Below are positions 39,926 through 44,472 of a stretch of 64,000 nt of DNA, piece after piece. Every line of letters starts with the position of its first letter. Position 1 is the first letter of the stretch. The notes under the pieces are model-generated. The model saw nothing but the letters and a program-made list of their open reading frames with translations. It was not told where the DNA came from and ran no database searches. Source of the DNA: Gammaproteobacteria bacterium (lineage in GTDB: Bacteria > Pseudomonadota > Gammaproteobacteria > Pseudomonadales > Azotimanducaceae); assembly GCA_028824555.1 (NCBI GenBank), contig JAPPDJ010000139.1, forward strand, positions 1 to 64,000. The letters run 5' to 3'. The translations under genes and the position numbers were made by a program.

Positions 39926-40639
39926 CTAAACAAACTCTACAGACACTTGGCCGATGCCCTTGGCCGTGCCGGCATCGAAGTCGCCGTGGAGCCGACATGC
40001 GTCGGTGACGGCGTGCTTGCCGAACGAGCCGGTGATGACGCGGTTGCCGGGTTCGAGCGCTCGGCCGAAACGGGCTAGCTGACGCGCGAGGGCAGCGAGG
40101 GAGTCGAAGTGGTCGTCGATGTGGCCTGCTGCGGCGACGCTTTCGAGTTCGCTACCGTCGAGGGAGAGGCGCACGGACACGTCCGCGAAGGCAAAGCCGC
40201 GCCAATCGAGCACGCGGGGCTCTCCCACCACAATGCCCCATTGCGAGAGATCGTCCGCGAGGCGGTCAGCCGTCGTCGCGCCGGGGGACAAGCGCCGCTC
40301 GTTCAGCTCGAACCCGGCGCAAACGGACTCCACGGCCTCGAGAGCATCGTCTCGCGTGGCACCCGCGCCAAGTTGGCTGCCCATCGTGAAGCAGAACTCG
40401 TTCTCGACTCCCGGCGTCATGATGCCGGCCCGTTCGACTTTCGCGCCACTCGGGAACACGCGCTCCGGCAAGATGAAGCCAAACGGGCGGAATCCCGGCC
40501 CCATGCTGTCGCGGGCGCCGCCGGAAGTGAGTCCTACCTTCCAGCCGGCCACCTCGCGCTCGCCTAGCACGTCAAGCTGGCGCCGCAGGCCTGCATCGAG
40601 TTCTTCTTGCGACGGAAATCCGGTTTCAGACATCGGCAT
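39926..40639 (-). CDS. 2-keto-4-pentenoate hydratase/fumarylacetoacetase-like protein
   Basis: EVAGWKVGLTSGGARDSMGPGFRPFG, VENEFCFTMGSQLG, GNRVITGSFGKHAV. Confidence 0.82.
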   Translation of the reverse strand: MPMSETGFPSQEELDAGLRRQLDVLGEREVAGWKVGLTSGGARDSMGPGFRPFGFILPERVFPSGAKVERAGIMTPGVENEFCFTMGSQLGAGATRDDALEAVESVCAGFELNERRLSPGATTADRLADDLSQWGIVVGEPRVLDWRGFAFADVSVRLSLDGSELESVAAAGHIDDHFDSLAALARQLARFGRALEPGNRVITGSFGKHAVTDACRLHGDFDAGTAKGIGQVSVEFV

Positions 40640-41495
40640 GGTCCTCGATCCTGCCCCGCCAGCCGAGCACGGCCTCCGGATCGCGCGCCGCCGCCGGCAT
40701 CCCGAAGGTGGGCGTCACCGGCACCAGCACCCGATCGACACCGAGGTTGCTCAGCGCCTTGAGTTCACCCAAGTCCTCGGGGCAACTCACGGTGACTTCG
40801 AGCTTGGACGGATCCCGGCCATTCGCCTCGGCGGTCTCCCGCGCCAGCGCGATCAGCTCCGCCGATGCGCCTCGGGCGGGGAAGAAGCCGTCACCGAGCC
40901 GTCCAGCGCGCCGCGCCGCCGCCTTCGAATGGCCGCCGACGATGATCGGCACATGCCCATCCACCGGTTGCGGTCGGCAATAGGCGCCGTCGAACTGCAC
41001 GAACTCTCCCGCGAAGGAAGGCCGATCCTGGCCCCAAAGGGCGCGCATCGCCGCCACGTATTCGTCTGTGCGGGCAGCCCGTTCGTCGAATTGCGCGCCA
41101 ATGACATCGAACTCCTCTCGGAGCCAGCCGACGCCAATGCCGAGCAGTATGCGACCGCCGGTCATGCGATCGAGCGTGGCCACCTGCTTGGCGGTGATGA
41201 CGGGGTTGTGTTGCGGCACGATCAGGATGCCGGTGCCGAGCTTGATGCGACTTGTCTGTCCGCCCACGTAGGCCATCCAGACGAGCGGGTCGGGCAGCGG
41301 AAAGTCGTGCGCCCCACCGGCCATCTTGCCGTCTTCCGAATACGGGTAGGCGGATTCGTAGCCCTCCGGTACCACCGTGTGCTCGACGGTCCAGGCAGAC
41401 TCGAACCCGGCCTCCTCCGCCGCCTGCACGAGTTCCACCGCCGCCGTGCCATCGACGTAGCGGCCCGTGTTGCAGTAGCGCAATCCGAACTTCAT
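40626..41495 (-). CDS. LLM class flavin-dependent oxidoreductase
   Basis: KFGLRYCNTGRYVDG, VEHTVVPEGYESAYPY, GTGILIVPQHNPVITAKQVATLDRMTGGRILLGIGVGWLREEFD. Confidence 0.92.
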   Translation of the reverse strand: MKFGLRYCNTGRYVDGTAAVELVQAAEEAGFESAWTVEHTVVPEGYESAYPYSEDGKMAGGAHDFPLPDPLVWMAYVGGQTSRIKLGTGILIVPQHNPVITAKQVATLDRMTGGRILLGIGVGWLREEFDVIGAQFDERAARTDEYVAAMRALWGQDRPSFAGEFVQFDGAYCRPQPVDGHVPIIVGGHSKAAARRAGRLGDGFFPARGASAELIALARETAEANGRDPSKLEVTVSCPEDLGELKALSNLGVDRVLVPVTPTFGMPAAARDPEAVLGWRGRIEDHADV

Positions 41496-41524
41496 CCCAT
41501 CCCCCGTGGCTGCATGCGCTCATG

Positions 41525-41580
41525 CTAACAGCCTGTCGGACTTTGCCGCGCCCGGGCGGCGAAGTGCGACAGGCTGTTAG
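41525..41580. repeat. Long palindrome with 14-bp perfect arms (ctaacagcctgtcg)
   Basis: ctaacagcctgtcggactttgccgcgcccgggcggcgaagtgcgacaggctgttag folds almost end to end. Confidence 0.8.
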
Positions 41581-41614
41581 CCGTAGCTGCGAGCGAACGC
41601 GAGCACGAAGGCCA

Positions 41615-41656
41615 GCAGTTCGCGCCAGCGAACTGCCGACGCGCCCTCCAGGGCGC
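41615..41656. repeat. Family R4 double-hairpin element
   Basis: gcagttcgcgccagcgaactgc-cgac-gcgccctccagggcgc. Confidence 0.75.
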
Positions 41657-41758
41657 GCTAACAGCCCGCCGGTCGAATCCGGCTGCCGCGAGCCGAACGC
41701 TGGCGCCGGCGTGCCGCAAAGGCATAACATCCGGCGCGTCATCCTGTTCGGAAGGGCC

Positions 41759-43147
41759 ATGCGCGTTCGGCTGGCTTCGTGTCTGGCGTTCCTTGCCGCG
41801 TTTCTGGCGTTCCTCGCCGCCTGCTCCGCTTCTGCGGAGCCGGTGCGTGTCTATCTGATGCTGACCACGGCAACCGCCCCGCTCGGCAGCGTCACCGAAC
41901 TGCAGCTCATCAACACTTCGGGCGAGGATCTGCGCTTCACGGGGGACCTCTTCAACCATCGTGGCGAAGCGCTCGGCACGGCCGGGGCGTCCCTTAGCGA
42001 TGCGCCGCTCGCGCCCGGCGCACGCTTGGCGCTCACGTCCGCTGCGCTGGAAACGCGCTTCGACACCGAAGCCTGGACGCAGCCGGCCATGCTCGAAGTT
42101 AGCGCCGATGTGGAGAACGCCTCGTTCGTGGCCATGCTGCGGCTCCGGAGCGCGCCCCATGGCTGGACCACCAACGTCAACTGCGTCGCGGAAGGCGCGG
42201 TGCACAGTGTCGAGGGCATCGATCAACCGGACAGCACCTACATTCGCTTCGTCAACACCACGGACGAACGCATCACCAACATTCGTGGAACCTTGCGGGA
42301 CGCAGACGGTGACGTTGTTGGCACGGCCAATCGCCGGCTGCTCGCTTCCCTTCAGCCCAAGGCGGGGGCCTGGCTAAGCGCGGCTCGCCTCGCGCAACTC
42401 GTCGGCAGCCGCTGGAGCGGTCAGGCAAGCCTGTACGTCTCCCACCATCCGGGGCTGAAGCTGATGAACCTCAACATCATCGGCAACGAGACGTTCGTGA
42501 ACTTCTCTTGCCTCGACCGGGCGCCCAACATGCGGGGGATGGAAGCCACCGCCCGCTACTCCGTCACCTTCACGGCGCGATGGAACGCAGCCGACCACGG
42601 CACGGTGCCGGCCGGCGCGCACTTCACAACGCTCGCGGGAGCGGCCGTCAATGCCGATGCCGATCTGTGGGTGCCGGGAGAGCTTGCGACGAGTGGCCTT
42701 GAGAACCTGGCCGAACTCGGCCAGACCTCGACGTTCCTGGCCGAGATTGCCGCGAAGACCGACGCCGGCGATGCCGGCGAGAGCGTAACGAGCAGTGGCA
42801 CCGGTGCCACCGGAACGAGCGTCTTTGAACTGACCGTCTCCCGCGACCTGCCCAATTTCACTTTCGGCAGCATGATCGCGCCGAGCCCGGACTGGTTCGT
42901 GGGGCTCTCCGAGTTCCCCCTCCTCGATGGCGAAGGCCGCTGGATCGAGGATACCGGCGACATGGGGCTGCCGGCCTGGGACGCCGGCACCGAAACCGGC
43001 ACCGAGTTCAGCCTGAGCGGCACCGCCACCAACCCACAACAACCCATCAGCCTCCTGACGGAAACCGTCGGCGGCACGGTGGAGTTCAACCGCGGCACCA
43101 TAGGCGGCAGCTACCTCGCCACCATTCGCTTTCGTCGCATTCCGTAG
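41759..43147 (+). CDS. Putative lipoprotein with C-terminal Spondin_N-like domain
   Basis: N-terminal LAFLAACSASAEP lipobox; C-terminal YSVTFTARWNAADHG...HFTTLAGAAVNADADLW...FTFGSMIAPSPDWFVGLSEFPLLD..GRWIED. Confidence 0.8.
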   Translation: MRVRLASCLAFLAAFLAFLAACSASAEPVRVYLMLTTATAPLGSVTELQLINTSGEDLRFTGDLFNHRGEALGTAGASLSDAPLAPGARLALTSAALETRFDTEAWTQPAMLEVSADVENASFVAMLRLRSAPHGWTTNVNCVAEGAVHSVEGIDQPDSTYIRFVNTTDERITNIRGTLRDADGDVVGTANRRLLASLQPKAGAWLSAARLAQLVGSRWSGQASLYVSHHPGLKLMNLNIIGNETFVNFSCLDRAPNMRGMEATARYSVTFTARWNAADHGTVPAGAHFTTLAGAAVNADADLWVPGELATSGLENLAELGQTSTFLAEIAAKTDAGDAGESVTSSGTGATGTSVFELTVSRDLPNFTFGSMIAPSPDWFVGLSEFPLLDGEGRWIEDTGDMGLPAWDAGTETGTEFSLSGTATNPQQPISLLTETVGGTVEFNRGTIGGSYLATIRFRRIP

Positions 43148-43275
43148 GGGCGGGGCTTGTTCCCCGCCCGTCTTGAATTCGACACGACGAACTCGTCGAA
43201 GCACAGCAGTTCGCGCAAGCGAACTGCCAACGCGACCGTCAGGGCGCGCCGGGACGGGGCATCCCCGCCCCCACG
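43143..43275. repeat. Palindromic element R3 with a nested R4 hairpin (43206-43227)
   Basis: cgtaggggcggggcttgttccccgcccgtctt ... gcagttcgcgcaagcgaactgc ... cgggacggggcatccccgcccccacg. Confidence 0.7.
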
Positions 43276-43356
43276 AACCCGCGTTCTGCAGCGCAAGCTC
43301 CTGGCTGCGTGCGCTATAGTCGAAAGGCAGCCTAGCCGAAGCCACGAGGGGGAGCG

Positions 43357-44472
43357 ATGCGCAACGGATATCGAGTGATTGACACGGATTCGCACCAGAT
43401 GGAGCCGCCGCGCATCTGGACGGACTACATTGATCCCGTGTTTGCGGACCGGGCTCCCCGCATCGGTGACATGGGCAATGGCCGGCCGGGGATGATGGCG
43501 GAAGGGGAACCCATCACCAAGCAGGACGGCAGCTATCCGATGCATTCGGAAGAGTTCCATGAAGCGGCTGCACGAGGCATGGAGAAGCACGAACAGTCGC
43601 GAGCGGAGGGGTTCAGCGCCGAGGCGCGGCTGCGCGACATGGACGCGCACGGCATCGACGCCCAGGTGCTCTATCCGACCGTGGGCGGGCAGATGCTCGG
43701 CAAGGAGTGGAACGACCCAGAGTTGCTCGCTGCGGTGTGCCGGGCCTACAACGACTGGAGCATCGAGTATTGCAGCGCGGCGCCGGGACGTCTGCGAATG
43801 GCCGCCATGCTGCCGGTGCAGGCACCGGATCTCGCGCTCGAGGAGGCGGAGCGCATGGACGCGAAGGGCGCAGCCGGCTTCTACGTGCGCCCCAACCCCG
43901 TTTGCGGGCGCAATCTCTACCATTCGGATTACGACCCGCTTTGGAGCCGCATCGAGGACTTGGCCCGGCCACTGTGCATCCACGACTCCGGCTCGCCCTA
44001 CCTGCCGTCCTATGGCGAGCGCATGGACACCCACACCTCCGGCCACATCATTGCCCACCCTTTCGAGGCGATGGTGGCGATGATGAGCCTCATCTGGTAC
44101 GGCGTAATCGAACGCCATCCGAAGCTTTCGGTCGTGCATGTGGAAGCCGACGCCGGCTGGCTGCCCTACTGGCTGCAGCGCATGGAGCAGCACTGGGACT
44201 TCTCCGGCAACGCGGAGCATCCGGAACTCAGGCGACGGCCGACGGAGTACTTCAAGTCCAACTTCCTCGTGGCCTGCCGCGGCGACGAAATGACGCTGCC
44301 AGCGGTGTGCGAACTGGTCGGCGACTCCTACGTCACCTTCAACACGGACTACCCTCACCCCGATGGCACCTGGCCCGCCGGCATGGCAGACCTCGAGAAG
44401 CAGCCGCTGCCCGAAGAGAGCATCCGCAAGATCTACTGGGACAATGCTGCCCCGGTGTTCGGCGTCGCCTGA
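43357..44472 (+). CDS. Amidohydrolase family protein
   Basis: VIDTDSHQMEPPRIW, RLRDMDAHGIDAQVLYPTVGG, VHVEADAGWLPYWLQRMEQHW, FNTDYPHPDGTWP. Confidence 0.9.
   Translation: MRNGYRVIDTDSHQMEPPRIWTDYIDPVFADRAPRIGDMGNGRPGMMAEGEPITKQDGSYPMHSEEFHEAAARGMEKHEQSRAEGFSAEARLRDMDAHGIDAQVLYPTVGGQMLGKEWNDPELLAAVCRAYNDWSIEYCSAAPGRLRMAAMLPVQAPDLALEEAERMDAKGAAGFYVRPNPVCGRNLYHSDYDPLWSRIEDLARPLCIHDSGSPYLPSYGERMDTHTSGHIIAHPFEAMVAMMSLIWYGVIERHPKLSVVHVEADAGWLPYWLQRMEQHWDFSGNAEHPELRRRPTEYFKSNFLVACRGDEMTLPAVCELVGDSYVTFNTDYPHPDGTWPAGMADLEKQPLPEESIRKIYWDNAAPVFGVA

Follow-up and report, generated by a model that had tools for sequence, protein, structure and literature searches.

A bacterial F-spondin domain joined to an uncatalogued double repeat in a gammaproteobacterial genome

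The F-spondin (FS) domain, Spond_N in Pfam, is a calcium-binding module that is familiar above all from animal matrix proteins but widespread in bacteria too, and its presence in a gammaproteobacterial contig raises the questions of where it came from and what it might do there. The gene concerned lies on the forward strand of the window (the whole 64,000-nucleotide stretch of DNA that was analyzed), where it runs from an ATG at 41759 to the end of its stop codon at 43147, with a Shine-Dalgarno-like GGAAGG 5′ of the start at 41750-41755 (forward strand). It encodes a 462-aa protein, predicted to be exported, with two N-terminal repeats and a C-terminal FS domain, i.e., it is an ordinary bacterial spondin-domain protein whose front half is a double repeat not described in Pfam or NCBIfam. 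The first-pass annotation had placed a Spondin_N domain at the C-terminus of this frame, and there it was right, as the ORF is in place and the FS domain is full-length. Its wider interpretation fared unevenly: Spondin_N, the signal for export and the plausibility of binding calcium stood, the label “animal-type” and the idea of an unassignable middle region did not, and its suggestion of surface adhesion or a role in a host is a conjecture.

The gene and its parts

The FS domain (residues 263-462; 42545-43144, forward strand) was identified by a Pfam match to PF06468 at residues 265-436 (E 1.9e-28, 100.4 bits against a gathering cut-off of 24 bits, profile positions 1-175 of 194), the search that the first-pass annotation had proposed, and by a match to the NCBIfam bacterial spondin domain NF038123 (E 1.4e-25, 90.7 bits against a curated cut-off of 40 bits). 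The three peptides that the annotation had quoted as characteristic were all present, at residues 267-281, 288-311 and 367-398. Two solved human FS domains were also matched, those of mindin (3d34, E 9.7e-23) and F-spondin (3q13, E 1e-14), and a 12-row profile of bacterial relatives strengthened these matches to E 3.5e-46 and E 1.3e-41, respectively, with no credible match to any other solved structure. A search of 14 control genomes for the spondin family gave no signal, and the FS match is far beyond chance. It is the homology to these two solved structures that implies a C2-like, eight-stranded beta-sandwich fold for the domain; when AlphaFold2 was applied to the complete protein and to the FS domain, with only three near-identical sequences as input, the pLDDT values were 37.6 and 33.5.

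Two orthologues, in the metagenome-assembled genomes SB0662_bin_60 and SB0665_bin_27, share 96% and 90% identity with the protein. Comparison with them gave a dN/dS of 0.11-0.16 for the whole gene and 0.10-0.12 for the FS half, with both halves at about 0.1-0.2, values that rule out a non-functional ORF and show the protein to be under purifying selection. The FS half is the slower-evolving one (dN 0.016-0.045 vs 0.027-0.074 for the repeat half).

The N-terminus carries a signal sequence (residues 1-26; 41759-41836, forward strand), read from the sequence and conserved in the two orthologues, although the window copy has a 7-residue insertion in its hydrophobic stretch that leaves both orthologue signals seven residues shorter. 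The earlier call of a lipoprotein was based on a lipobox, LAAC (residues 19-22, with the codon of C22 at 41822-41824), which is indeed present and conserved in both orthologues. Lipoprotein status is nevertheless ambiguous, because in all three orthologues the lipobox is followed directly by a site that would suit signal peptidase I (A-x-A before E, SASA/EP, residues 24-27). Clear lipoboxes (LLTACGG, TLAACGS) were found in two small relatives consisting of little more than an FS domain (L069, L070), and the signals of other relatives end in A-x-A-like sites. The window protein is thus predicted to be exported, possibly in a lipid-anchored form.

The region between signal and FS domain, for which the first-pass annotation could offer no assignment, can be described as two homologous repeats of about 115 aa. 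Repeat 1 (residues 27-143; 41837-42187, forward strand) ends in NVNC (C142), repeat 2 (residues 144-256; 42188-42526, forward strand) ends in NFSC (C251), and each was delimited by its homology to the other (BLASTP E 7e-5, 32% over 71 residues; hhalign probability 93%, E 3.5e-7, 89 columns). The double repeat had no Pfam match above cut-off and no PDB match. An NCBIfam FxLYD Ig-like match at residues 165-201, below cut-off, and strands at pLDDT 55-76 over residues 41-100 of the weak AlphaFold2 model together hint at a beta-sandwich. A disulfide between C142 and C251 is conceivable, since both cysteines are kept in a 44%-identical copy of the double repeat in another genome, G076. As that copy occurs without an FS domain, the double repeat is a module of its own, and a rare one: 4 of 98 relatives had it, a count that includes the genome of the window, and among the 295 genomes of an order sample it turned up in that genome only. 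The copy in G076 lies in a 491-aa frame on the minus strand of L068, behind a lamin-tail-like stretch (itself below the Pfam cut-off), in a protein with no spondin domain. Repeats in two long relatives (L063, L064) look suggestively similar, but the hhalign comparison was not significant (probability 1-4%).

History of the locus and of the domain

The gene sits between an LLM-class oxidoreductase-like gene (40626-41495, minus strand) and an amidohydrolase-like gene (43357-44472, forward strand), both named from sequence, the former being placed also by synteny. In four congeners (G006, G007, G013, G015) the same two genes are adjacent, 109-411 bp apart as opposed to about 1.85 kb here, with no spondin gene between them, so that the stretch 41505-43340 is absent. 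In the window and in both orthologue genomes the spondin gene is followed downstream by the same amidohydrolase gene; it adjoins the same oxidoreductase gene in the window and in one orthologue genome (G014), and the contig of the other (G009) stops just upstream of the spondin gene. From this empty site it follows that the gene either was inserted, as an accessory gene, in a single branch of the genus or has been lost in several others. The synteny comparison revealed no conserved operon partner from which a pathway might be guessed. If an insertion, it is not compositionally foreign, since its GC (0.664 vs 0.657 for the genome) and GC3 (0.816) are in line with those of the DNA around it. Of the other FS domains the closest (76%) is that of G006, found at another locus with a different, acidic front half, and FS domains have therefore been combined with different partners.

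The surroundings hold other features. All but one of the congeners have close relatives (76% or more) of the amidohydrolase gene, whose family is expanded across the genus, with 6 to 32 matches per genome, e.g., in G015. A REP-like palindrome, CAGTTCGCNNNAGCGAACTGC, flanks the spondin gene at 41616-41636 and 43207-43227 and has 4 matches in the window on both strands combined, against 0.14 expected. The exact pattern occurs 83 times in the window's genome, 50 times in G014 and 59 times in G009, there is no copy in the 13 other congeners, and a backwards control gave none; the repeat family is lineage-specific and restricted to the three genomes with the spondin gene. A joint gain of gene and repeats was considered and rejected on the basis of the downstream copy: G014 lacks it, the stop codon there being followed within a few tens of bases by the conserved leader of the next gene; the downstream repeat must therefore have come or gone separately. 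Just upstream of the first REP-like site, an imperfect inverted repeat (41525-41580) around TAACAGCCTGTCGGACTTTGCCGC...GCGACAGGCTGTTA resembles a short mobile repeat. In G009, the region 3′ of the orthologue (L071) has G/C homopolymer runs, an N run and, beyond the stop, a repetition of the final codons of the gene, all of which is probably an assembly artefact.

Of the 16 genomes of the genus, 8 have a full-length FS domain, as do about 30 of the 201 in a family sample (these eight included), about 10 others among 295 genomes of the order and 4 others among 369 of the class (~1%), an enrichment whose counts take in related genomes and so are not independent samples. Spondin-domain proteins of any type are more common, at 57 of the 369 class-sample genomes (~15% of sampled Gammaproteobacteria), most of them of a distinct shorter type of about 250 aa, often in tandem pairs. 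In the long relatives from the genus and family, the FS domain follows a signal-like N-terminus and precedes fn3, putative Ig, LRR, Calx-beta or cadherin modules, so that by their predicted architectures the full-length FS domains keep the company of extracellular modules. One such relative from the family (L065:9675-17513) is a 2613-aa protein with FS, Calx-beta, cadherin, fn3 and FG-GAP modules and a zinc-protease-like EIGHNLGLKH near its C-terminus; it could possibly be a matrix-active protease.

A tree of 35 rows, whose only animal rows were two human domains and which held no sponge FS sequence, placed the short bacterial type in one group (support 100/99), the two human domains in another (99/91) and the bacterial full-length domains in a weakly supported third (82/71), apart from the animal ones; the window FS fell within a bacterial set of six (99/95). 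With this nesting, the commonness of bacterial spondins and the existence of an NCBIfam model for them, “animal-type” is a misleading description. Recent capture from an animal is not supported, given the bacterial placement in a tree that lacked sponge FS and a GC matching that of the genome. An older exchange of FS between bacteria and animals, in either direction, may have occurred, the animal rows being just the two human ones. Carriage by a virus or plasmid was rejected: the viral contigs and phages searched contained no relative, and plasmids gave only remote spondin matches in Persicobacter (29-34% identity).

Calcium residues and a possible role

Human F-spondin coordinates a single calcium ion through the side chains of D325 (in PSPDW) and D354 (in DAGTD) and the main-chain carbonyl of D358 (PMC3117680). 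The alignment showed both carboxylate ligands to be conserved in the window protein, as D378 in PSPDW (residues 375-379; 42881-42895, forward strand) and D408 in DAGTE (residues 408-412; 42980-42994, forward strand), with E412 replacing D358. The equivalents of D325 and D354 are invariant in 21 of 21 aligned rows, as are the Pro and Trp of PSPDW. It was not far-fetched, then, for the first-pass annotation to suggest a calcium-binding protein: the conservation of both ligand positions makes calcium binding by the FS domain plausible, as a prediction from sequence. Other contacts of the human domains have not been kept. The integrin-binding LEV of mindin reads LTV, without the integrin-binding Glu, and mindin-type integrin binding is, by this alignment, not supported. 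The Arg226/Arg227 pair of F-spondin, which binds sulfate in the crystal and has been proposed to contact sulfate or phosphate, is replaced by a gap and Ala, and any anionic ligand would thus need other residues.

The reading that we prefer, to which we would give about an even chance, is of an exported, calcium-dependent binding protein, at the cell surface or secreted, with an FS head on a short two-repeat stalk. The signal sequence would direct transfer across the inner membrane, and then either C22 would be lipidated and the protein held at the outer membrane, or a cut after A26 would release it. The two repeats would serve as a rigid spacer, and the FS domain, C2-like by homology, would hold one calcium ion between the PSPDW and DAGTE loops, which in turn would bind an extracellular ligand, the likeliest candidate being an anionic lipid or polysaccharide of the cell's own matrix or that of its neighbours or a host.

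Whose matrix that might be is the point on which narrower readings divide. The protein may be purely a part of the bacterial matrix or envelope, its FS domain binding exopolysaccharide or lipids of the cell itself and stiffening the envelope or a biofilm with no role in a host. The occurrence of spondin-domain proteins across the class and on Persicobacter megaplasmids speaks for this, as does a note, from genome data, that Spondin_N genes lie next to an L-amino-acid oxidase gene of Pseudoalteromonas luteoviolacea (PMC6316408). Its patchy presence in the genus and the empty site in four congeners, however, do not befit a core envelope part, and we find this reading rather doubtful.

A host-directed mimic, in which the FS domain contacts the matrix or receptors of an animal (perhaps sponge) host as mindin does with integrins, strikes us as unlikely. 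In its favour are a 173-column alignment with human mindin that is 35% identical and the presence of full-length FS domains in half of the genus versus about 1% of the sampled class, and the nearest named genomes, SB0662_bin_60 and SB0665_bin_27, are metagenome-assembled bins that we take to be sponge-derived. It has to contend with the LTV in place of LEV, with a composition that matches the genome and with the nesting of the FS domain among bacterial and not animal sequences in a tree without sponge FS. Decidedly improbable, to our minds, is its most elaborate form, in which a probably animal-associated lineage built a calcium-dependent matrix mimic from shuffled modules, inserted at a fixed site, with a rare, possibly disulfide-clasped double repeat behind an FS head that recognises host matrix or glycans.

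That binding is done by the double repeat, with the FS domain as a tail that just stabilises or anchors the protein, is very improbable: G076 has the repeat without FS, behind its lamin-tail-like stretch, but FS is the slower-evolving and widespread half and the repeat module is present in only 4 of the genomes searched.

To return to the exported calcium-dependent binder, its broader relevance lies in how numerous its relatives are, a literature search having found no ligand, functional study or tested function for any bacterial spondin-domain protein. The window protein is a compact, two-part and strongly conserved example with intact calcium residues. Were its ligand a component of a host's matrix, an animal-like matrix domain would be tied to a bacterial symbiosis; were it a component of the cell's own matrix, this would explain the role of FS in bacteria, and perhaps its role before animals put it to use.

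Comparison with known spondins

Like the members of PF06468 and NF038123, the window protein has a domain above the curated cut-off of both libraries; unlike them, it has as its front half a double repeat that neither Pfam nor NCBIfam describes. It differs from its large multidomain relatives in having FS at the C-terminus, where theirs comes right after the signal sequence. The short bacterial spondins of about 250 aa share DAGTE with it and have PTND-G as the counterpart of its PSPDW-F, but they match the profile at about 25-152 only, with 20-50 bits, and form a separate, fully supported group in the tree.

With the FS domain of F-spondin (spondin-1; 3q13) it shares 30% identity and the equivalents of D325 and D354, and it differs in having Arg274 at the position of the Asn214 glycosylation site, Leu and Gly in place of the cysteines C336 and C340, and no Arg226/Arg227 pair. 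It also has neither the reelin_N domain nor the thrombospondin type 1 repeats of F-spondin, Spond_N being its sole Pfam domain. Unlike mindin (spondin-2; 3d34), it has LTV for LEV, a bacterial export signal, no thrombospondin repeat and no equivalent of cysteine C336. Even so, it is with mindin that it shares the 35% identity noted above, together with PSPDW, DAGT[DE] and both carboxylate ligands of calcium.
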